DNA from: Actinoplanes oblitus
GTDB taxonomy: Bacteria > Actinomycetota > Actinomycetes > Mycobacteriales > Micromonosporaceae
NCBI RefSeq assembly: GCF_030252345.1
Contig: NZ_CP126980.1
Location: forward strand, 1-64,000
Direction: 5' to 3'
Length of the DNA stretch: 64,000 nucleotides
Shown here: positions 30,136-60,787 of the stretch, one piece after another
Layout of the letters: each line of letters starts with the position of its first letter
Position numbering within the stretch: position 1 is the first letter of the stretch
Program-made: the position numbers and the translations under genes
Notes under the pieces: generated by a model
Told to the model about the DNA's origin: nothing
Seen by the model: only the letters and a program-made list of their open reading frames with translations
The model's database searches: none

Positions 30136-31013
30136 TGACCTTCATCAGTATTCGCGAGGTCGCGCCCCGCGACGGCCTGCAGAACGAGGACCCGGTCCCC
30201 ACCGACGGCAAGGTCGAGCTGATCGACGCGCTCGGCCGGACCGGCGTGCGGAGGATCGAGGCGGTCTCCTTCGTGCACCCCAAGGCCATCCCGCAGATGG
30301 CCGACGCCGACGAGGTCTGGTCGCGGATCACCCGTGAGCCGGGCGTCAGGTACTCCGCGCTGATCCCGAACACCAGGGGCGCGCAGCGCGCCTTGGCCGC
30401 CGGGTTCCGGGAGATCGAGGTGGTGGTCTCGGCCAGCGACACCCACAACCGGCGCAACCTCAACCGCTCCACCGACGAGTCGCTCGACGACATCGCCGGG
30501 CTGATCCCGCTGGTGCACGACGCCGGCGGAACCCTCGAGGTGATCGTCGCGACGAGCTTCGGCTGCCCCTACGAGGGTGACATCGCGCCCGAACGGGTGG
30601 CCGGCATCGTCTCGCGGGTGCGCGCCGACGGCGCGGACCGGATCGCGTTCGGCGACACCACCGGGATGGCGACCCCGCGCCGGGTCCGCGACCTGCTTTC
30701 CGAGGTACGCCCGGACCTCCTGCACTTCCACAACACCCGTGGTACCGGACTGGCCAACATCGTCACCGCCCTGGAGCTCGGGGTGGTCGAGTTCGACGCG
30801 AGCGCCGGCGGGCTGGGCGGCTGCCCGTACGCCCCCGGGGCGTCCGGCAACGTCGCCACCGAGGAGGTCGTGCACATGCTGCACGACATGGGCTTCGACA
30901 CCGGCATCGACCTCGATCGGTTGATCGAGGCCGCCGAACTGGCCGAACGTCTGGTCGGGCGTCCCCTTCCGTCGGGTGTTCTGCGAGCCGGGCCGCGTAC
31001 CCGTCTGGTGTGA
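30135..31013 (+). CDS. hmgL: Hydroxymethylglutaryl-CoA lyase
   Basis: It cleaves HMG-CoA to acetoacetate and acetyl-CoA, the last step of leucine degradation. The 292-aa TIM barrel has the opening motif REVAPRDGLQNE with catalytic Arg-Asp, EAVSFVHPKAIPQMADAD, FGDTTGMATP, HFHNTRGTG (metal-binding His pair) and the signature GGLGGCPYAPGASGNVATE with catalytic Cys near residue 235. Start ATG 30135 shares one base with the preceding stop (TGATG), so translation is coupled to the biotin carboxylase. Confidence 0.93.
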   Translation: MTFISIREVAPRDGLQNEDPVPTDGKVELIDALGRTGVRRIEAVSFVHPKAIPQMADADEVWSRITREPGVRYSALIPNTRGAQRALAAGFREIEVVVSASDTHNRRNLNRSTDESLDDIAGLIPLVHDAGGTLEVIVATSFGCPYEGDIAPERVAGIVSRVRADGADRIAFGDTTGMATPRRVRDLLSEVRPDLLHFHNTRGTGLANIVTALELGVVEFDASAGGLGGCPYAPGASGNVATEEVVHMLHDMGFDTGIDLDRLIEAAELAERLVGRPLPSGVLRAGPRTRLV

Positions 31014-31164
31014 TTTTCCGATCCGATTCCCGCGATCATTTTTCTGATTTGCTCGCGTGACTTTCCGCTCGCTCACGTCGTTACCAATACCGAGTGGCCG
31101 ATATCGCCTGATCTCACCAATAGAGGTCGGGCAGTCATGCGGCCGACGACGAGGGGTGGATCCG

Positions 31165-32127
31165 ATGGCGGGCTGGAGGGTCGAGCGCACGCCGCGCACG
31201 GCGTCCCGCTCCGTGCCGGCCACCCCCGGCAGCTCCTCGCTCATGCCGCCCCACAGCCAGGGGGCGGAGCGGCGGTCGGAGCGCCGCGCCGGACGTGCCG
31301 GTTCCCGGTGGGTCCTGCGAGCACTCGTCGTCGGTGGCCTGGCCGGAGCGGCCTGGCTGCTCACCGGTGCCGCCGCGCACGCCGCCGGCCCCGAGCCCGA
31401 GCCGATCACCGGCACCTGGCTCGGAGCCGCGACGGAGTCCGGAGCCGTGACGGAGTTCGCGGCCGTGACGGACTTCGAGGCCGTGACGCGGGACGTGTCG
31501 CGGGCGACCGGCACCGAATCCGTGGTCGGCGAACTCCTGAAGGCGGCCGTCCAGCCGCTGGAGTCCGCACCCGAGATCCCGCCGTACGACTCCTCGGCAG
31601 GGGAGCCCCTCGACGAGGCGCTGCCGCCGGCGGCCGCTCCGCTGCGTACCAGCAGCGAGGACGCGGACGACGAGAAGCAGCCCGCCGCCGAGGTGCGCGA
31701 GGCTGAATCCACGGCCCAGCCCGCCCGGCCCGCCGCGAAGCGGGCGATCAGGGCGGGCGGGGACAAGGCGAGTGGGAGCACCCGGGCCACGCGGAACCGG
31801 GCCGGCGTGACACCGGTCCGGCGTCTCAAGGCCCACTCCCGATCGCATCTCCATCGGCATGCCCCGGTCGCCCGGCCGGTTGCGCCGGAGAGGCTCCGGG
31901 AGGACGTGCCCGGCGGTGACGGACCCGCGCCCGCGCGGACGAACCTCGGGGCAGTCAGCGGTATCCCGGCCGGTAGCGGCTCGGGAGGTTCCTCGGAGAC
32001 CGGCTCGTCGGCCGTTCTCCCGTCCGGGATCGCGAACGGCCCGGTGGCCTGCCACCGCTGCCCGATCGCACCCGATGTCGACGCCCGGCGCAACGACGCC
32101 GAGGCGCCGACCGTCTCACCTGACTAG
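31165..32127 (+). CDS. Hypothetical secreted or membrane-anchored protein
   Basis: No family is recognised. The 320-aa product begins with a basic Arg/Ser-rich segment of about 50 residues, then one hydrophobic helix RWVLRALVVGGLAGAAWLLTGAAAHAA that resembles a late signal peptide or anchor. The rest is low-complexity Ala/Pro/Glu/Ser/Arg sequence (repeats such as GAVTEFAAVTDFEAVT). It includes a His/Arg-rich stretch SHLHRHAPVA, and a Cys pair (VACHRCP) lies near the C-terminus. ATG 31165 has GAGGGGTGG upstream. It directly precedes the chaplin-like gene on the same strand, so the pair may act together at the cell surface. Confidence 0.65.
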   Translation: MAGWRVERTPRTASRSVPATPGSSSLMPPHSQGAERRSERRAGRAGSRWVLRALVVGGLAGAAWLLTGAAAHAAGPEPEPITGTWLGAATESGAVTEFAAVTDFEAVTRDVSRATGTESVVGELLKAAVQPLESAPEIPPYDSSAGEPLDEALPPAAAPLRTSSEDADDEKQPAAEVREAESTAQPARPAAKRAIRAGGDKASGSTRATRNRAGVTPVRRLKAHSRSHLHRHAPVARPVAPERLREDVPGGDGPAPARTNLGAVSGIPAGSGSGGSSETGSSAVLPSGIANGPVACHRCPIAPDVDARRNDAEAPTVSPD

Positions 32128-32379
32128 TGATGGTCCCCGACGGCGTTCATTGAGCGGCCGTCGCACCAGGACCGGCGATTCCCGAACCGTTTGCGTACAA
32201 GCGGCGAATCGCACGGCGTCCTGAGAAACCACACCGCTATGGGCGCACGTCGACGAGCGGAGTCAGGGCCGGATAAATACGAGCCAGGGCACCGCTGCGC
32301 CCAGAATCCAGTTCCGGAACAGCCAATTGAATAAGCGGAAAATCCTTGCTGACCATTTTTGAAAGGCATCTCTTTCCTC

Positions 32380-33633
32380 ATGAAGAAGACGTGGGTTCGT
32401 AAGACGCTGAGCGTCGGGATCATGGCTGCCGGCGCTCTGCTCATGGCGCCCGCCGCGGCCCAGGCCGGGTTCGCGCCGTCGGCGGCCGGCCAGGACGGCG
32501 TCACGCAGTTCTCCTCCAGCAACCTCGGCGCCCTCAACGGCACCCAGTTCGCCGCCCCGATCACCGCGCCGATCAACATGAACGGCAACGCCATCGCGCT
32601 CGGCGGCATCTCCCGGGCCACCGGCGCCGGGGTCAACCGGGTCGTCGAGGGCGGCCAGCACTCGCGTGGCGGCAACGACATCACCCAGCGTTCGGCCGGC
32701 AACGTCGGTTTCCTGAACGGCACCCAGATCGCCGTGCCGGTCACCGTGCCGATCAACCAGAACGGCAACGCCGACAGCCTGTTCGGCATCAGCGACGCGA
32801 GCGGCAGCGGCGTGAACCACGTCCAGGAGCACAGCCGGGTCGCCGGTGGCGGCTGGAACGACGGGATCAACCAGGCCACCGGTGGCAACGTCGGTTTCCT
32901 GAACGGCACCCAGATCGCCGTGCCGATCACCATCCCGATCAACCAGTGCGGCAACGCGACCTCGTTCTTCGGGGTCTCCCAGGCGCGCGGCGTCTGCGGC
33001 AACTTCGTCGGCGGCGACAGCGGCCGGACCTTCCGGGTCGAGGGGCAGCGCCGGGTCGTGCACACCGGCGGTGGCTGGGACAACGGCGTCAACCAGAGCA
33101 GCTTCGGCAACATCGGGTTCCTCAACGGCTCGCAGTACGCCGCGCCGGTCATCGCCCCGATCAACGCCTGCGGCAACTCGCTGAGCGGCCTGCTCGGCAC
33201 GTCCAGCTCCCAGGCGTTCTGCGTGAACCGGATCGGTGGCAGCGACGACCGGATCTGGGTGAAGAAGCCGCACCACGGGCACAAGGGTGACCAGGGTGGC
33301 GACGTCCAGGGCGACGACGGCTACGACGGCGACGACTGCACCAAGAAGTGCGACGACGACGACACCGGCGACGTGCGCGGCGACCACGGCTACAACGGCG
33401 AGGCCCCGGCCGTGAACGACGACAACGGCTACGGCGACGTCAAGGGCGACGACAACGGCTACGACAACGACGAGGCCCCGGCCGACGTCAAGGACGACAA
33501 CAAGGGCTACGGCGACGTCAGCCCGGACAAGTACGGCGACAAGACCGGCGGCCGCAAGTCGGTCGAGAGCACCGCGGTCAACAGCCTGACCGGCAGCCTG
33601 GGTGGCCTGGACCTGCTCAACACCCTGCGCTGA
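32380..33633 (+). CDS. Chaplin-like surface protein with four repeats and acidic tail
   Basis: This is a secreted 417-aa protein. A signal peptide (MKKTWVRKTLSVGIMAAGALL to AAAQA) is followed by four repeats of about 60-75 residues. Their cores begin near residues 52, 112, 174 and 248 and read LNG(T/S)Q-x-A-x-P(I/V)-x-x-PIN-x-x-GN. This resembles the chaplin core of aerial actinomycetes (GN-x-x-x-x-P-x-x-x-PVN-x-CGN). Repeats 3 and 4 keep the chaplin Cys pair (INQCGN to VCGN; INACGN to FCVN); repeats 1 and 2 lack it. Next comes a basic KKPHHGHK linker and an Asp/Gly-rich tail with GDV-x-GD-x-GY units and a Cys pair. No LPXTG-type sorting signal is seen. ATG 32380 is preferred over TTG 32359. 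Function is inferred only. Confidence 0.78.
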   Translation: MKKTWVRKTLSVGIMAAGALLMAPAAAQAGFAPSAAGQDGVTQFSSSNLGALNGTQFAAPITAPINMNGNAIALGGISRATGAGVNRVVEGGQHSRGGNDITQRSAGNVGFLNGTQIAVPVTVPINQNGNADSLFGISDASGSGVNHVQEHSRVAGGGWNDGINQATGGNVGFLNGTQIAVPITIPINQCGNATSFFGVSQARGVCGNFVGGDSGRTFRVEGQRRVVHTGGGWDNGVNQSSFGNIGFLNGSQYAAPVIAPINACGNSLSGLLGTSSSQAFCVNRIGGSDDRIWVKKPHHGHKGDQGGDVQGDDGYDGDDCTKKCDDDDTGDVRGDHGYNGEAPAVNDDNGYGDVKGDDNGYDNDEAPADVKDDNKGYGDVSPDKYGDKTGGRKSVESTAVNSLTGSLGGLDLLNTLR

Positions 33634-33650
33634 TCTTCGGCACCACCACG

Positions 33651-33683
33651 ACGGGAGCCCTCGCGATCCGCGGGGGCTCCCGT
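33651..33683 (+). terminator. Terminator after the chaplin-like gene
   Basis: ACGGGAGCCC (33651-33660) pairs perfectly with GGGCTCCCGT (33674-33683), with further CGCG pairing possible in the loop. It ends where the accD -35 element begins. Confidence 0.72.
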
Positions 33684-33723
33684 TGCCGTTCGTCCACGTT
33701 CTGGGATAACCTAACGATCGTTA
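33683..33723 (+). promoter_or_regulatory. accD promoter with palindromic operator
   Basis: A -35-like TTGCCG (33683-33688) and -10 candidates GATAAC (33705-33710) or TAACCT (33707-33712) are followed by the perfect palindrome TAACGATCGTTA (33712-33723). A repressor there would cover the -10 and start site. The palindrome is related to the site before the tetR gene. Confidence 0.6.
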
Positions 33724-33752
33724 AAGTTGGCGACCCGAGCGGGGGAGAGTCG

Positions 33753-35276
33753 ATGGACGGTGACGCGCTGGCGCAGGTCCGCAAGCGGGTGCTGGCCGGT
33801 GGCGCGGAGCGGTACCACGCGGCGAACGCGGCGAAGGGCAAGCTCTTCGCCCGGGAGCGGATCGCACTGCTGGCCGACGAGGGTTCGTTCGTCGAGGACG
33901 GCCTCTACGCCAACAGTCTGGCCGACGGACTGCCCGCCGATGGGGTGATCACCGGAGTCGCCCGGATCGACGGGCGCGACGTCTGCGTGATGGCCAACGA
34001 CTCCACGGTCAAGGCCGGCTCGTGGGGCGCCCGGACGGTGGAGAAGATCGTCCGCGTCATCGAGCGGGCGTACCAGACCGGCGTTCCGATGATCTACCTG
34101 GTCGACTCGGCCGGCGCGCGGATCACCGACCAGGTCGACCTCTTCCCCGGTCGCCGCGGCGCCGGCAAGATCTTCCACACGCAGGTCCGGGCCTCCGGCT
34201 CGATCCCGCAGATCTGCGCGCTGTTCGGCCCGTCCGCCGCCGGCGGCGCCTACATCCCGGCCTTCTGCGACGTGGTCGCCATGGTCGAGGGCAACGCCAG
34301 CATGTACCTCGGCTCCGACCGCATGGTCGAGATGGTCACCGGGGAGAAGACCACGCTCGAGGCGATGGGCGGGGCCCGGGTGCACTGCGCCGAGTCGGGT
34401 GTCGGCCACTTCCTCTGCAAGACCGAGCAGGACGCGCTCGACGTCGTCCGCACCTATCTGTCCTATGTGCCGCAGAACTGGACGCAGCGCCCGCCCGCCC
34501 GGTCCGCCGTGGCAGCGTCCGGAGCCGACCTCGGCGTGCTGGTCCCGGCCAGCGAGCGGCAGGCGTTCGACATGCGCAAGTACATCAAGGGCCTGGTCGA
34601 CGAGGGCTCCTTCTTCGAGATCCAGGCGCTGTGGGCCCGCGAGTTGACCGTCGGTTTCGCCCGGCTCGACGGCGAGGTGGTCGGCGTCCTCGGCAACAAC
34701 TCGATGTTCAAGGGCGGCGTGCTCTTCGTCGACTCGGCCGACAAGGCGAGCCGGTTCGTGCAGCTCTGCGACGCCTTCAACATCCCGCTGCTGTTCCTGA
34801 CCGACGTGCCCGGCTTCATGGTCGGCTCGGCGGTGGAGAAACAGGGCATCATCCGGCACGGCGCCAAGATGATCACCGCGATCTCCGAGGCCACGGTGCC
34901 GAAGGTCTGCGTGGTGGTGCGCAAGGCGTACGGCGCCGGGCTCTACGCGATGGCCGGTCCCGGGTTCGAGCCGGACGCCACCATCGCGCTGCCCACCGCG
35001 AAGATCGCGGTGATGGGCGCCGAGGCCGCGGTGAACGCGGTCTACGCCAACAAGATCGCGGCGATCGAGGACCCGGACGAGCGGGCCGCCTTCGTCGCCG
35101 AGCGCCGCGCCGAGTACGAGCGCGACATCGACATCATGCGGCTGGCCAGCGAGCTGGTCGTGGACGCCGTGGTGGAGCCCGGCGACCTGCGCGGTGAGCT
35201 GATCCGGCGGTTCGCCGCCGCGCGCGGCAAGGATCGCGCGTTCTCCCGCCGTCGTCACGGCGTCACTCCGGTCTAG
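33753..35276 (+). CDS. accD: Acyl-CoA carboxylase beta subunit (carboxyltransferase)
   Basis: It transfers the carboxyl group from biotin to an acyl-CoA. The 507-aa carboxyltransferase begins MDGDALAQVRKRVLAGGAERYH. It has the crotonase-fold oxyanion segments SAGARITDQVDLFPGRRGAGKIF and FGPSAAGGAYIPAFCD in the N-domain, and FLTDVPGFMVGSAVEKQGIIRHGAK and RKAYGAGLYAMAGPGFEPDA in the C-domain. The early ARERIALLADEGSF is typical of MCC/PCC beta subunits. Gene context (HMG-CoA lyase, acyl-CoA dehydrogenase) favours methylcrotonyl-CoA. The ATG has GGGGGAGAG upstream. It is 2.7 kb away from its alpha partner because two surface-protein genes intervene. Confidence 0.94.
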   Translation: MDGDALAQVRKRVLAGGAERYHAANAAKGKLFARERIALLADEGSFVEDGLYANSLADGLPADGVITGVARIDGRDVCVMANDSTVKAGSWGARTVEKIVRVIERAYQTGVPMIYLVDSAGARITDQVDLFPGRRGAGKIFHTQVRASGSIPQICALFGPSAAGGAYIPAFCDVVAMVEGNASMYLGSDRMVEMVTGEKTTLEAMGGARVHCAESGVGHFLCKTEQDALDVVRTYLSYVPQNWTQRPPARSAVAASGADLGVLVPASERQAFDMRKYIKGLVDEGSFFEIQALWARELTVGFARLDGEVVGVLGNNSMFKGGVLFVDSADKASRFVQLCDAFNIPLLFLTDVPGFMVGSAVEKQGIIRHGAKMITAISEATVPKVCVVVRKAYGAGLYAMAGPGFEPDATIALPTAKIAVMGAEAAVNAVYANKIAAIEDPDERAAFVAERRAEYERDIDIMRLASELVVDAVVEPGDLRGELIRRFAAARGKDRAFSRRRHGVTPV

Positions 35277-50480: not shown

Positions 50481-51986
50481 TTGACCGCGCCCGCTGTACC
50501 GGCTCCTTCGCCCGCCTCCACGGGTGAGATGTCGCGTATCCCGGGGTTGAAGACGCGCCGTAACGCCGAGCTGGGTCTGCTGGCCTTCGCCATGGCGCTC
50601 GTCGCGGCGTTCGGCGCGACCGTGGAAGCCAACAAGTACGACCAGCTCCAGCCGAACTTCTGGGTGCCGGCCGCGCTGCTCAGCATCCTCTTCCTCGGCC
50701 TGCACATCGTGGTCCGCTACGTCGCGCCGTACGCGGATCCGGTGCTGCTCCCCACCGTCGCCCTGATCAACGGCATCGGCGTGGCGTTCCTGCGCCGCAT
50801 CGACATCGCCAACGCGATCAACGACAAGAAGGGGCCACCGGGGATCTTCTCCGGGATCGGCGGGCGCCAGCTCGCCTGGACCCTGATCGCGCTGATCCTG
50901 GCGGCGGCCCTGCTCCTGCTGATCCGCGACCATCGGAACGTCTCGAAGTACGCGTACACGCTGGGCCTCACCGGCATCGTGCTGATGATGATCCCGGCCG
51001 TGCTGCCGGGCAGCATCTCCGAGGTGAACGGCGCCAAGCTGTGGATCAAGCTGGGCGCCTTCTCCATCCAGCCGGGCGAGTTCGCCAAGCTGATGCTGGT
51101 CACCTTCTTCGCGTACTACCTGGTGCGCAAGCGTGAGGTCCTCTCGCTGGCCAGCAAGCGGTTCCTCGGCATCGACTTCCCGCGCGGCCGGGACCTCGGG
51201 CCGGTCGTCACGGTGTGGCTGTTCAGCCTCCTGGTCCTGGTCTTCGAGAAAGACCTGGGTACCGCGCTGCTCTACTTCGGCCTGTTCGTGGTGACGCTGT
51301 ACGTCGCCACCGAGCGGTCCAGCTGGCTGATCATCGGTCTGCTGCTGTTCTTCGGCGGCGTCTACCTGGCGTACCTGCTCGGCGCCTCGGTCGGCGGACC
51401 GTTCGCCAACTTCTACGACCGCGCGGAGATCTGGCTGAACCCGTTCTCCCAGGCCAACTACGAGCGGGCCAGCGGCAACAGCTACCAGCTGGTCCAGGGC
51501 CTGCTCGGGCTGGGCACCGGCGGCCTGTTCGGCACCGGGCCGGGCGCCGGCTCGCCGCTCTCGGTCCCCGAGGTGCAGAACGACTTCATCTTCGCCGGCC
51601 TGGGCGAGGAGATCGGCCTCTTCGGTCTCTCCGCGCTGCTGGTCTGCTACGTGCTGATCGCGATGCGCGGCCTGCGCGCCGCGATCGGGGTGCGTGACTC
51701 GTTCGGCAAGCTGGTCGCCGGCGGTCTGTCGTTCACCCTCGGCCTGCAGGTCTTCGTGATCCTCGGTGGTATCACCGGGCTGATCCCGCTGACCGGTCAG
51801 ACCACGCCGTTCCTGTCCTCCGGTGGCTCCTCGCTGATGGCGAACTGGCTGCTCATCGCGATGCTGCTGCGCATCTCCAACGCTTCCCGGGGTCCGGCGG
51901 TCGGCGGTGGCGGACCGGAACGACCCGGACCGAAGAAAGCACCCACCCAGTTGCACGGCGCCATGACGGAGGTGATCAAGCCGTGA
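50481..51986 (+). CDS. rodA: SEDS peptidoglycan polymerase RodA/FtsW family
   Basis: SEDS proteins polymerise glycan strands for cell-wall growth and pair with a class B PBP. The 501-aa protein has about twelve membrane helices. The signatures are GAFSIQPGEFAKLMLVTFFAYYLV, EKDLGTALLYFGLF, and NSYQLVQGLLGLGTGGLFGTG followed by VQNDFIFAGLGEEIGLFGL and TPFLSSGGSSLMANWLLI. It begins at TTG 50481 (ATG 50529 is an alternative) and overlaps the pbpA start by 4 bp, so the pair is co-translated. Confidence 0.94.
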   Translation: MTAPAVPAPSPASTGEMSRIPGLKTRRNAELGLLAFAMALVAAFGATVEANKYDQLQPNFWVPAALLSILFLGLHIVVRYVAPYADPVLLPTVALINGIGVAFLRRIDIANAINDKKGPPGIFSGIGGRQLAWTLIALILAAALLLLIRDHRNVSKYAYTLGLTGIVLMMIPAVLPGSISEVNGAKLWIKLGAFSIQPGEFAKLMLVTFFAYYLVRKREVLSLASKRFLGIDFPRGRDLGPVVTVWLFSLLVLVFEKDLGTALLYFGLFVVTLYVATERSSWLIIGLLLFFGGVYLAYLLGASVGGPFANFYDRAEIWLNPFSQANYERASGNSYQLVQGLLGLGTGGLFGTGPGAGSPLSVPEVQNDFIFAGLGEEIGLFGLSALLVCYVLIAMRGLRAAIGVRDSFGKLVAGGLSFTLGLQVFVILGGITGLIPLTGQTTPFLSSGGSSLMANWLLIAMLLRISNASRGPAVGGGGPERPGPKKAPTQLHGAMTEVIKP

Positions 51987-53482
51987 ACGCCCCCCTGCGC
52001 AGGTCCGGCGTGGTCCTCTTCGTACTGTTCGGACTGATCTTCGCGAACCTGAACTGGATCCAGGCCTACAAGGCCGACGAGTACCGCACCCACCCGTGGA
52101 ACGGCCGGGTGAAGGTCGCCGAGTACGAACGCCCCCGTGGCGTGATCGAGGCCGGTGGCAACGCCCTGGCCCAGAGCAAGGCGACCGACGACACCCTGAA
52201 GTACCTGCGGGTGTACCCGAAGAAGGAGATCTACGCTCCGGTCCTCGGCTACAAGCCGGTCAACCTGGGCTCGGTCGGCATCGAGGAGAGCGAGAACGAC
52301 TTCCTCTCCGGGGAGAGCGACAAGCTCATCGGTGACCGGATCACCGACATGTTCACCGGGGAGAAGACCGGTGGCGGCAACGTGCTGCTCTCGCTGAACA
52401 CCGCCGCTCAGGAGGTCGCCTGGAAACAGATGATCAACAACGAGCGCGGGGCGAAGAAGGGCGCGGCGGTTGCCATCGACCCGCGTACCGGGGCGATCCA
52501 GGCGTTGGTCTCGATGCCCAGCTACGACCCGAACCAGCTGGTCACCCACGACAAGAACGCGGCGGCGTCGGCGTATAAGAAGCTGAACGCGGACAAGGAT
52601 CAGCCGATGCTGAACCGGGCGCTGTCGCAGACCCTGCCGCCCGGCTCCACGTTCAAGGTGATCGTCTCGGCGGCCGCCCTGCAGAGCGGCTACGACGTCG
52701 ACACCGAGATCCCGGCCGGCAGCGTCTACCGGGAGGGCGGCGCGACCATCCGGAACTCCGAGGAGGAGGTCTGCCCGGGCGGCGAGGTCACCCTCAAGGA
52801 GGCGCTGACCGAGAGCTGCAACACCGGGTACGCCAAGCTCGGCGTGAAACTGGGCGCGGACAAGGTCAAGGAGACCGCGAAGGCGTTCGGTTTCGAGGAG
52901 AGCGACCTGCGGATCGGCAACCTGGAGAGCCACGACGGTCTCTCGGTGGCGGCCAGCCACACCGGCGACATCGCGAACCCGGACGGCAGCACCGACAAGT
53001 CGGCGCTGGCCCAGTCCTCGATCGGGCAGCGCGACGTGCGGATGACGCCGATGCAGGGCGCGCTGATCGCCGCCACGGTGGCGAACGGCGGCGACCAGAT
53101 GCGGCCCTACCTGGTGCAGAAACTGCTCAGCTCGGAACGCCGGACGATCTACACCGCGTCGCCGCAGAAGAAGAGCAGCCCGATCGACAGCGCGGTGGCC
53201 GGCAAGCTCAAAGAGATGATGATCAGCGTCGTCGAGAACGGCACCGGCAAGAAGGCGCAGACCGACGGGCTGACCGTCGGCGGCAAGACCGGTACCGCGC
53301 AGAACGCCGAGGGCGCCGACCCGCACGGATGGTTCATCGGCTTCGCGTTCAACGACAAGGGTGATCCGGTCTCCGCGGTCTGCGTCATGCTGGAGAACGT
53401 CTCCGGTGGCCACGCCAGCGCCGAAGCGGCTCGCATCGCCGGACTGATCATGAAGGCCGCTGCCGGCGGGGGAGGAAAGTGA
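51983..53482 (+). CDS. pbpA: Peptidoglycan transpeptidase PbpA (class B PBP)
   Basis: This is a penicillin-binding transpeptidase partner of RodA. The 499-aa protein has a short cytoplasmic end and one membrane helix (VVLFVLFGLIFANL, residues 9-22). A pedestal region follows, then the transpeptidase with SxxK in PPGSTFKVIVS near 222, SxN in TESCNTGYAKLG near 277 and KTG in GGKTGTAQN near 434. All catalytic motifs are intact. Start GTG 51983 overlaps the rodA stop (GTGA). Confidence 0.95.
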   Translation: MNAPLRRSGVVLFVLFGLIFANLNWIQAYKADEYRTHPWNGRVKVAEYERPRGVIEAGGNALAQSKATDDTLKYLRVYPKKEIYAPVLGYKPVNLGSVGIEESENDFLSGESDKLIGDRITDMFTGEKTGGGNVLLSLNTAAQEVAWKQMINNERGAKKGAAVAIDPRTGAIQALVSMPSYDPNQLVTHDKNAAASAYKKLNADKDQPMLNRALSQTLPPGSTFKVIVSAAALQSGYDVDTEIPAGSVYREGGATIRNSEEEVCPGGEVTLKEALTESCNTGYAKLGVKLGADKVKETAKAFGFEESDLRIGNLESHDGLSVAASHTGDIANPDGSTDKSALAQSSIGQRDVRMTPMQGALIAATVANGGDQMRPYLVQKLLSSERRTIYTASPQKKSSPIDSAVAGKLKEMMISVVENGTGKKAQTDGLTVGGKTGTAQNAEGADPHGWFIGFAFNDKGDPVSAVCVMLENVSGGHASAEAARIAGLIMKAAAGGGGK

Positions 53483-57647: not shown

Positions 57648-59978
57648 CTATGCCTTCGTCTTCATCTCGGCCGGCATGCCGGCGTCGGCCTTGGTCTGGT
57701 CCCGCGGCACCGTCTTCATCAGTTCCGCGTGCACGACCAGCCGCTGGTAGTTGTTGAACTTCGGGTTGCAGGTGGTCAGCGTGAGCAGCGCCTTGGTCGG
57801 GGTCTCGCCCGGCTTGTTGGGCACCGGGGCGACCACCTCGACCTGGTTGGGCGTGACGATCTGGTGGCCGGTGACCTGGTAGACGTACCAGCTCTCGCGG
57901 GTCTCCACGCCGATCACGTCGCCGGGCTTCAGCTCGTCCAGCCGCCAGAAGATCTTCTTGATCCGGTGGCCGGCCACCGAGAAGTTGCCGATCTGGCCGG
58001 GCTTGGCGGTCTCCGGGTAGTGGCCCGGGGCGTACTTGATGTCCTGCGGACGGACACCGTCGACGACCACCCACTCCTTGTCCAGCTTCGGGATGTAGAG
58101 GCGGCCAACCAGGGCCTCGCCCGGCGCGGCCGGACCCTGCACCTTGCTGGTCGGCGCGACGGTCGGATCGGCCCAGGCCTGGTCCAGCTCCTGAGCCAGG
58201 TGGTCCTGCTCGGCCTGCACCTCGGCGGAGTTGCCGAAGACCTCGTAGCCGGCGAACAGCAGCACGATCAGACCGAAAGTGATCATCAACTCGCCGGCCC
58301 CGCGGATGCCGGTGCGCAGCCGGGACGCGGTGGTCGGGCGGGTCAGCTCGGAGTAGACGCTCTTGTAGCCCTCGTCGGTCTGCTCCGGGCGCAGCTTGAC
58401 GACCTTCTCCCCGCGTTTCGGCGGTTCCGGCTCGGCGGTCTCGGCGGCGGGCTCGTCGAGGACCGGCGGGACGTCCTTGATCGAGGCGGCGCCGACCACG
58501 GCCTCCGGGCCGGCGGCCTCGCGGGCGGCCTGGGCCGCCTTGCCGGGCGGCAGGACGGTCAGCTTGCCGGGCAGCGGGGCGCCCGGCGTCAGGGTGGGCA
58601 GGACGCCGGTCGGCGCGTCGAGGGTCGGGATGACCCGGGTGGCCGAGACGATCGGGTTGGTGGCCGGATCGCTCGGCTCTAGCGGCTCGTTGCTGGCCCA
58701 CCGGGTGTTCTTCGAGCCCATCGGCGGACCGCTCGCAGCGGGCAGAGGACGCGTCGCGGCCCCGGAGGGCTCCCAGGATGCCGGAACGGCGGTTTCGGCC
58801 GTCTCCGGGGATTTCCGGGCCGTTTCCGGGGTGCTGGTGATCGGCTGGCCGGTGACCGGGGCGGTCGGGTGCGCCGCCCAGGCGGCGGCGGTCGGCACGC
58901 CCGCCGGTGACGCGGTGGCGGCGAGTGGCGGCGCGGCGGGGGACGCGGTGGCCGGGGAGGCCGGCGCGGCGGCGGTCTCGATGCGACCGGTCGCGTCCGG
59001 ATCCCAGGCGGGAGCGGCCGGGCTGGCCGGCGCCGCGGCGCGCCGCCCGGAGACCGGTGCGGTCTGCCGAGTCGGCTCGGCGGACCAGTCGGCCGGGGTG
59101 CTCGGCGCGGCGGCCTCCGCGGGCCAGCCGGCGGGGCTGCCCGGCGTGGCGGGAGCTGCGGTGCGACCGGCGGGGCTGCTCGGTGCGGCGGGATCCGGGG
59201 ACCAGCCGGCGGGACTGCCGGGCGGGCTGGACGGCGCGGACCAACCCGCGGGGCTGCCTGGCGTGGCGGCGGCCGCGGACCAGCCGGGCGCGGCCGGGGC
59301 GGGGCTCTGCGGGCGGGTCGGCTGGGTGCTCCAGACCGGTCCGCCGGCCGGCGTCACGGCGGGCTCGCCCGCTCGCGCGGGCCGGTCGGCGGCACGCCCG
59401 GGCAGGTCAGCCGCGGGCACGGGCACGTCGGTGACGCGCGGGAGCGGCTCGGTGGCACGGGCGGCGGTCCGGTCGCTGGCCGGGAACTGCTGGGTGTCGC
59501 CGACGGGCGCCGGGGACGCTTCGGTGCGTACCGAAAGCGGGTTTGGCTCCTCGTCGGGAGCGGGGGCGAAGAAATCGAAACTCTCCGGCGCGGCCGGGGC
59601 CGACGGCATCGCCCGGCGGCGGGCCGCCGCGGCGGCCGCGCTGACCTCGTCGAGACCATTTTCGGTACGGGCGGAGTCCCGGGCAGCGCGAATCCGCCGC
59701 TGCGCGCTCTCGTCCGCCGCGAGGATCGCGGTGTCCGGGGCGTCCGGCTGAGCGGGGCTCGGCGGCGCCTCGGGAAGGCGGGGGGAACGGGCCGGCGCGG
59801 CCGGGCTCACGTTGGCGCCGAGTCCCACCGGTGGGGTCAGCGGGCCACCGGGCACCCCGTCCGGCGACGCGTCGCTGAGCCGCGGGATGTACGCGGTCTG
59901 GGCCTCGGAGTCGGGAGCGCGGTGCCGTCCCCGGCCGGCCGGGCTGCTCCCCGGGTAGTCCGCGGGCGTGCTCGTCAC
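57648..59978 (-). CDS. Class E-type sortase with very long N-terminal region
   Basis: Sortases join secreted proteins to the cell wall by transpeptidation. In this 776-aa protein the catalytic domain is the last 200 residues: [19 protein letters not shown], His in [11 protein letters not shown] near 668, Cys in [13 protein letters not shown] near 735 and Arg in [10 protein letters not shown] near 745. One membrane helix ([17 protein letters not shown] near 563) precedes it. About 550 cytoplasmic residues come first, Pro/Ala/Ser-rich with repeats such as GSPAGW. GTG 59978 overlaps the upstream DUF881 stop. The motif spacing fits class E. Confidence 0.88.
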
Positions 59979-60787
59979 TGGGCAGCCTGTGCGGATCGGA
60001 GGTCGGTCGACCCGTCGTACGCCGGCACTGTCACATCCTTTTCGTTTCTCTCCGCGTAGCCGAGCCCGAAATCGGTGACGGCCTCGCGGAACTGCCTGAC
60101 TCCTTCTGCGGACTCCAACGCACGATGCATCGCTGTGGGTTCGCCGATCGCTGTGATCTTGAATGGTGGCGAGAAAACCTGGTTGTGAAGGAGCAGCGTG
60201 TTGCCGACACAGCGTACCGCGCTCGTGCTGATCACGCGGACATCCATGATCGTCATGGCCTCGGCCCCGCCGGCCCACATCGCGTTCACCACCGCCTGGA
60301 CATCGCCCTGGTGAACGACCAGATCGTCGTTGTCGGGGGCGTTGTCACCGAAGTCGGATCCGCGTCGCGGTGAGTCGTTGAGGGTGACGGTGAGGCCGGG
60401 TCCGTGCAGGGCGGTGAAGCCGGCCGGCTCGCGGACCGCGTCGGCGTGCTCGCGGGCGTCTTTCACCGGCGTGTCCACCTCGGCGAGCCGGGCCGCCTCG
60501 GCGTCGACGCCGGCGCGCAGGGCGGCGGCCCGTTTCTCGCTGTCGGCCAGGCGGTCCCGCTTGTCGGCGATCAGCTGGGCCAGCTGTGGCCGCCGGTCGT
60601 CACGCAGTGCCGTCCCGTCCGCGGTGGTCGCGGACGTGGTGAAGAGCAGGCCCGCGGCCAGCGCGATCAGCGGAACTCCGACGGACCAGATGGTCCGCCG
60701 GCCACCCCGGCGCGGCCGCAGTCCACGAGCCGCGCGCCGCAGCGCCAGCTGCCAGGAGGCGCCCCCGCGCCCACCTTGAAAAGCCAC
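59975..60787 (-). CDS. DUF881 family protein
   Basis: DUF881 proteins are membrane-anchored and found near division genes (Rv0012-like); their function is unclear. The 270-aa product has a basic cytoplasmic start, one membrane helix ([21 protein letters not shown], about 33-53), a coiled-coil ([31 protein letters not shown]) and the DUF881 fold with [44 protein letters not shown] and [22 protein letters not shown] 60787 starts the frame. It heads a minus-strand operon with sortase and trpG, divergent from crgA. Confidence 0.9.

Follow-up and report, generated by a model that had tools for sequence, protein, structure and literature searches.

A four-repeat chaplin-domain protein lacking a sortase signal in Actinoplanes oblitus, and its SPD-tailed neighbor

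Chaplin repeats are the units that waterproof the hyphae of Streptomyces, a genus that raises aerial hyphae. Actinoplanes is a soil genus that packs its spores in sacs, and these sporangia open in water. In the literature cited here, chaplin function has been studied in Streptomyces; Actinoplanes forms sporangia instead. The available part of a 2013 review lists chaplin-like genes in Stackebrandtia, Thermobifida, Streptosporangium, Nocardiopsis, and Arthrobacter (PMC4255298), and the accessible portions of two further papers describe variants free of Cys, namely, ChpE (PMC3079736) and the C-terminal chaplin domain of ChpB (PMC13251363). Here, we describe a chaplin-like gene product, given the working name CHP, and the product of its upstream neighbor, given the working name U, which are encoded at positions 32380 to 33633 and 31057 to 32127, respectively, of a 64,000-nucleotide window (the whole stretch of DNA analyzed; contig NZ_CP126980.1) from Actinoplanes oblitus.

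CHP is a chaplin-domain protein, a multi-repeat and unanchored variant. An earlier note, made from the letters of the window, had proposed a secreted chaplin-like protein with four repeats, two carrying a Cys pair and two without, followed by an Asp/Gly-rich tail with GDVxGD-type units, and each of these elements was borne out. The Pfam profile PF03777 (ChpA-C) matched CHP in four stretches (E value, 1.8e-12; 47.3 bits against a cut-off of 21), and no unrelated family matched better, the next two (E values, 0.0024 and 0.04) both falling under their own cut-offs. Scored singly, the repeats reached 19.1, 20.2, 25.5, and 20.2 bits, so that each could be recognized but one of the four exceeded 21 bits. 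The motif NG[TNS]Q...P...P.N..GN was found at residues 53, 113, 175, and 249 and did not appear in any of 20,000 protein shuffles, and a count of Cys residues assigned the pairs to repeats 3 and 4. NCBIfam gave no match for CHP or U at E values up to 1. The available part of PMC13251363 describes three GN turns per chaplin domain; by eye, the GN following PINx(C/N) was present in all four CHP repeats, the first turn was NGT or NGS instead of GN, and the last varied. Grand average of hydropathy (GRAVY) values for the repeats were 0.25, −0.11, 0.40, and 0.36, with Streptomyces-type chaplin domains averaging 0.50 (n = 59; range, −0.01 to 0.81).

Beyond the repeats, units of the GDVxGD type with GY begin at residues 307, 330, and 352, the third having one extra residue; three such units were reached in 0 of 20,000 tail shuffles. 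The suggestion in the earlier note that the tail may bind metal was not supported, as simple patterns detected no RTX, EF-hand, or dockerin-type motif and the tail alone gave no Pfam match at E values up to 10; it is nonetheless strongly acidic. Mature CHP is hydrophilic. Neither LPxTG nor LAxTG occurs in CHP, which terminates in LGGLDLLNTLR, and its C-terminal end was the only match of its kind in the genome. CHP is therefore not a long chaplin, since these sortase motifs are absent, and not a short one, since it has four domains in 417 amino acids. A sortase-domain protein is encoded in the window at 57648 to 60278 on the minus strand (PF04203; E value, 1.3e-32), 24 kb from the sortase-motif-free CHP.

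The leader, upstream region, and signal peptide were compared across 50 unique relatives from Actinoplanes and other genera, window included. GAAAGGC was located within 25 nt of the CHP ATG in 45 of these and GAA[AG]GG in 49; because this leader is conserved, the ATG is preferred over an alternative in-frame TTG at 32359, 21 nt upstream. The leader and first codons (32335 to 32415) are AT rich and conserved (Val GTT in 49/50, Arg CGT in 42/50). Such a start in a gene with a third-codon-position GC content of 0.96 suggests strong translation. Amino acid identity across the 50 proteins was about 0.85 to 0.86 in the signal peptide versus 0.36 to 0.50 in the other CHP stretches measured. Fourfold-site identity was 0.59 there, lower than the 0.64 to 0.70 found elsewhere, and constraint therefore acts on the amino acids. 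No close second copy of the signal peptide was present in the genome (next best E value, 0.12).

Table 1. Features of the U-CHP locus and their positions in the window
Feature	Position	Strand	Basis or remark
U: signal sequence, low-complexity middle, C terminus EAPTVSPD	31057..32127	+	Adjacent gene on the same strand, in Actinoplanes and further genera
Two-part hairpin between U and CHP	32177..32210	+	39/50 relatives
Second inverted repeat, GGGCAC-loop-GCGCCC, ~80-95 bases 5' of CHP start	32287..32302	+	40/50 relatives
CHP, chaplin-like secreted protein, 417 aa	32380..33633	+	Open reading frame, ATG start, PF03777
Signal peptide MKKTWVRKTLSVG..., residues 1-29	32380..32466	+	Best conserved part of CHP
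Chaplin repeat 1, residues 43-90, without Cys	32506..32649	+	Single-repeat Pfam score, Cys count
Chaplin repeat 2, residues 103-150, without Cys	32686..32829	+	Single-repeat Pfam score, Cys count
Chaplin repeat 3, residues 165-211, Cys pair	32872..33012	+	25.5 bits alone
Chaplin repeat 4, residues 239-286, Cys pair	33094..33237	+	Single-repeat Pfam score, Cys count
Acidic Asp/Gly-rich tail, residues 300-384, pI 4.1, two further Cys	33277..33531	+	
Conserved C-terminal end ...LTGSLGGLDLLNTLR, residues 394-417, without sortase signal	33559..33630	+	Relatives, motif scan

A single-sequence search with CHP gave matches in 59 of 67 Actinoplanes genomes, and all 16 loci located in named genomes were from Actinoplanes. 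Two of the eight genomes without a match were inspected; G016 holds a degenerate relative, and in G049 none was found. A 10-row profile matched 152 of 300 family genomes from 29 of 44 genera, matches that include chaplins not necessarily orthologous to CHP. Class-wide, PF03777 was detected in 97 of 394 genomes, comprising the window's own, where CHP was the sole locus found, 39 from family f21, 39 from family f19, and 18 others (from the family codes we infer Streptomyces for f21, a Streptosporangiales-like group for f19, and a Micrococcaceae-like group for f39). Between 5 and 15 matches were obtained per f21 genome, where no more than 16 candidates were scored. When 42 of the PF03777 genomes outside f21 were searched again, multi-match frames of 274 to 1061 amino acids were common. 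Single proteins showed eight (locus L092; E value, 1.2e-53), seven (L169), or five (L083, E value, 4.8e-46; L155) stretches. Chaplins with four to eight repeats thus occur in other actinomycete families, and repeat number alone is therefore not novel; the description of CHP as a distinct multi-repeat surface protein holds for the multi-repeat surface protein, with "distinct" being too strong. The record carrying L092, from Nonomuraea gerenzanensis (NZ_LT559118.1), is 11.85 Mb and chromosome sized, although labeled a plasmid.

From 87 loci, 52 unique CHP-type proteins with the N terminus MK(K)TWVRK were collected, window included. A profile built from 41 seeds of these same proteins counted 207 repeats in them, with five in 22 proteins, four in 17, three in 6, two in 4, and one in 3. 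Cys numbered two in 110 repeats, zero in 97, and one in none, as expected of an intra-repeat disulfide. Frequent orders along the repeats were 0,0,2,2 and 0,0,2,0,2, and L083 to L085, from another genus, had two Cys in all five repeats. Some rows were damaged, with runs of N in L004 (A. liguriensis) and contig ends at L005 and L006, and L091 is a chaplin at a different genomic place. In A. sandaracinus, two 13.3-kb loci on different scaffolds (L008 and its duplicate L009) matched each other in search results and in encoded protein, perhaps owing to an assembly duplication.

A tentative model of the repeats was all-beta (pLDDT, 64.6), and among its PDB matches were FapC and CsgA, to which the resemblance was weak. 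A viral fold library search gave no match at an E value of ≤0.001, and a full-length AlphaFold2 model (10 sequences; pLDDT, 34.6; pTM, 0.31) was not used. From family knowledge together with this weak model, a role in a coat appears to be the best reading, and we consider it somewhat probable that CHP is a multi-repeat, non-sortase chaplin-domain surface protein that forms a coat of stacked beta-arch repeats on hyphae, sporangia, or spores, with U as its partner. Amyloid or surface-active behavior is plausible on the same model, and a role in sporangia or spores is consistent with the genus-wide presence of the gene. Following export, the repeats would adopt a stack of beta-arches in which each repeat supplies one layer, in the manner of FapC or CsgA fibrils, and their assembly would give the hyphae, sporangia, or spores a covering that repels water or is insoluble. 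Intra-repeat disulfides could lock the layers of repeats 3 and 4, and the Cys-free repeats 1 and 2 could stay plastic or nucleate. The acidic tail would face water, or hold cations or sporangium matrix, and U, in the least certain step, may be a partner in export or assembly.

The view that so conserved a signal peptide proves dedicated export was weakened by a control N terminus (window positions 51983 to 53482; a penicillin-binding protein by eye) that was equally conserved, with an identity of 0.91 over 29 residues in 22 of 30 loci, the other 8 being left out where the start was not found by pattern; the two sets are unmatched, the control being Actinoplanes only and the CHP set including other genera. 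In G035, which we take to be A. missouriensis 431, the gene at the same place as CHP (L072, 6821 to 8026) encodes a protein that keeps the signal peptide, acidic tail, and C terminus and has one degenerate repeat. Several HQGFTG-type units stand in place of the eroded chaplin repeats, and the protein had no Pfam match at an E value of ≤1. It is likely the A. missouriensis orthologue of CHP with almost all repeats lost, which speaks against a function in sporangia or spores. Because the repeats of this likely orthologue are eroded, A. missouriensis, the model species, may be atypical for its genus; in contrast to it, 45 of the 52 proteins collected keep three to five repeats.

The eroded relatives also bear on a different and unlikely explanation, in which CHP is a hydrated matrix or adhesive protein similar to SspA, in which cations or matrix polysaccharide are bound through the acidic tail and C terminus while the repeats act as a tether. 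L072, L016, and L074 all keep the signal peptide and C terminus despite eroded repeats, mature CHP is hydrophilic with a tail pI of about 4, and SspA, according to the part of PMC13293333 available, is a disordered spore-surface protein required for a normal matrix. However, the acidic tail is absent from some relatives (L005, L017, and L090), and the fact that those 45 proteins retain three to five repeats, with Cys strictly paired, argues against a mere tether. It is similarly improbable that CHP is a vegetative hyphal-surface protein that sets colony hydrophobicity as CwpA and CwpB do, with no role in sporangia. According to the accessible text of PMC13251363, its authors observed CwpA and CwpB acting in vegetative growth, liken them to long chaplins, and believe that they render hyphae hydrophobic; nothing speaks directly against this explanation, but CwpA and CwpB carry an LPVTG sortase motif and have no chaplin domains, whereas CHP has no sortase motif. 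Decay of the family in Actinoplanes, with repeats drifting under weak selection and little present function in this strain, would fit the range of one to five repeats across the 52 proteins, the apparent loss in G049, and the short U (89 to 145 amino acids) in L007, L018, L077, and L082, but is very improbable, as four repeats, paired Cys, and an open frame are retained in CHP as well as in the two proteins nearest to it (identities, 91 and 93%).

U had no Pfam match at an E value of ≤1, and its product ended in SPD in 19 of 26 Micromonosporaceae loci checked; the exceptions were L004 (gaps), L007, L018, and L082 (short U), L010 (one additional residue), L013 (PPD), and L072 (FPD). In Nonomuraea L092, a shorter exported protein ending in DDPSFSPD is encoded upstream of the eight-repeat chaplin. 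Across regions outside f21 (L154 to L185), a same-strand upstream open reading frame (ORF) ending in SPD, APD, or TPD was present in 18 of 32 and not in 14; no such ORF was found in f21 regions, whether wider (0/8; L186 to L193) or narrower (0/30; L094 to L123). L185, from f39, encodes a chaplin-like protein whose printed repeats are Cys free, and its upstream gene ends in TTPD. Among 61 sequences (the window, L072 to L091, and L154 to L193), 32 of 4,741 ORFs of at least 60 amino acids ended in SPD, and all 32 were located just upstream of a chaplin-type gene, the partner in L077 being a degenerate relative. A simple gene caller applied to the same sequences gave 28 SPD-ending genes of 730, plus three ending in APD or TPD, likewise upstream of chaplin-type genes. 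These sequences were chosen mainly for their chaplins, and the specificity therefore holds within such regions.

At the genome level, the DNA pattern for [DE]xP[ST]xSPD followed by a stop codon was searched, with the pattern read backwards as the control. The genome of the window has a single match, which lies at U; class-wide, 36 of 394 genomes together yielded 51 matches, as against 6 matches in 6 genomes for the control. The 36 comprised the window's own, 33 of 40 from f19, and two more, G323 and G546, in which the match terminates in TGG, not a stop codon; all 33 f19 genomes were also PF03777 positive, and 0 of 39 f21 genomes matched. Since wobble bases differ between matches, the tail is conserved as protein. 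One locus per genome (30 of the 51 matches) was read, and 28 held an SPD ORF. Downstream of these, 15 had a chaplin-type protein by motif, 12 had another exported-looking protein, and one (L216) had none by the filter. Chaplin-type partners tested in Pfam scored above the cut-off in L198, L200, and L217 and below it in L197 (14.8 bits), and the exported-looking proteins of L199, L206 to L215, and L218 had no PF03777 match at an E value of ≤0.1. That SPD-tail proteins serve chaplins only was thus not upheld; with 12 of 28 preceding a non-chaplin exported protein, SPD-tail genes associate with exported proteins of a certain class rather than strictly with chaplins, which leaves the broader form of the partner idea standing. 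Profile comparison aligned 20 columns of the signal segment between families (38 versus 17 sequences; probability, 78.6) and nothing beyond it; alignment failed for a third set of four sequences (probability, 0.9). A link among SPD-tail proteins of different families would rest on position and tail rather than on homology over the full length.

In a wider reading, which we hold as possible but rather doubtful, many multi-repeat chaplins outside Streptomyces would be half of a two-gene module with an SPD-tail partner, possibly a general surface-assembly device, and the chaplin itself would stack as a FapC-like beta-solenoid. The partner would be an exported, low-complexity protein with a signal segment resembling RWxLRxLVVGGLAGAAWLL and a C-terminal ...P[ST]xSPD, and could escort, anchor, or nucleate the chaplin, replacing sortase anchoring in Micromonosporaceae or acting beside it in the Nonomuraea type. 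The module is perhaps general, since in some genomes the gene after the SPD gene encodes a non-chaplin exported protein whose signal peptide is similar.

The first ORF of the window reads as dnaA (named by eye), and the window start is therefore probably the origin region of the 9.8-Mb genome. In 23 of 27 genus loci (L003 to L018 and L072 to L082), CHP was present with a gene of the TetR type upstream and, downstream, one for a carboxyltransferase or acyl coenzyme A (acyl-CoA) dehydrogenase; of the other four, L005, L006, and L017 were truncated by contig ends, and L078 had no CHP. The carboxyltransferase gene was not at its usual place in L007, L014, and L076, and in L007 and L014 the same was true of the biotin carboxylase and lyase genes. 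Gene order was similar in other genera (L083 to L088 and L090), with no lyase match in L083 to L085. Neither U nor CHP was found in G049 (L078) between its matches for the lyase and the carboxyltransferase, the starts of which are only ∼1.5 kb apart.

Between U and CHP, the inner stem of the hairpin varied in a compensatory manner (CCGTTTG/CAAGCGG, CCGCCTG/CAGGCGG, CCGCTCG/CGAGCGG, and CCGTTTG/CAAACGG); the outer arms were mostly fixed by the search pattern, making their constancy uninformative. This hairpin may act as the U terminator or in regulation. It occurred once in the genome with up to three mismatches allowed, which ruled it out as the mark of a regulon. A riboswitch upstream of CHP was dropped, as window positions 31000 to 34000 gave one Rfam match, below the cut-off; four relatives gave nothing at the gathering score.

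No published experiment on CHP or U was found, nor were papers on the locus tags AMIS_250 to 300 or ACSP50_0026 to 0031, which were estimated from position. PMC7275007 describes a gene deletion made with CRISPR/Cas9 in the acarbose producer SE50/110. The available parts of PMC7275007 and PMC7682106 contain nothing on the CHP gene, and in that of PMC5765111 chaplin appears in the references only. Two 2026 genetic papers concern a species from which the repeats seem to have been lost; studies of that species would overlook the CHP system. CHP is a testable candidate for the coat of hyphae or spore sacs, and the new element is its SPD-tail neighbor. If these proposals are true, the CHP-U pair would offer a direct handle on the coat of hyphae or sporangia in rare actinomycetes. 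The SPD-tail protein would then count, for Gram-positive bacteria, as a new factor in the handling of secreted proteins that are perhaps prone to amyloid formation.

CHP can be compared with several known systems. It resembles the long chaplins ChpA-C of Streptomyces in being secreted, in having more than one chaplin domain, and in carrying sequence beyond the domains, but it has four domains rather than two, no sortase signal, an added acidic Asp/Gly tail, the LGGLDLLNTLR end, and an SPD-tail gene upstream. The short chaplins ChpD-H share the domain type and include a Cys-free variant (ChpE); they are single-domain proteins of 5 to 6 kDa in the part of PMC3079736 available, whereas CHP has four domains and a long tail. 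The chaplins of N. gerenzanensis L092 and f19 likewise have several repeats and often an upstream gene ending in SPD, APD, or TPD, but those read have a hydrophobic, basic end that by eye resembles a membrane or sortase anchor, which CHP does not. FapC and CsgA use Gram-negative export systems. CHP repeats are tentatively predicted to form the same kind of stacked beta-arch layers, one per repeat, as these amyloids, but a relation in sequence was not shown, a PDB sequence search with CHP giving 0 matches at E values up to 10. Finally, CwpA, CwpB, and SspA of A. missouriensis are exported and give the surface or sporangia of Actinoplanes their form, in which CHP would be similar to them; by the accessible portions of PMC13251363 and PMC13293333, all three carry sortase signals and CwpA and CwpB have no chaplin domain, whereas CHP combines four chaplin domains with an end free of any sortase signal.
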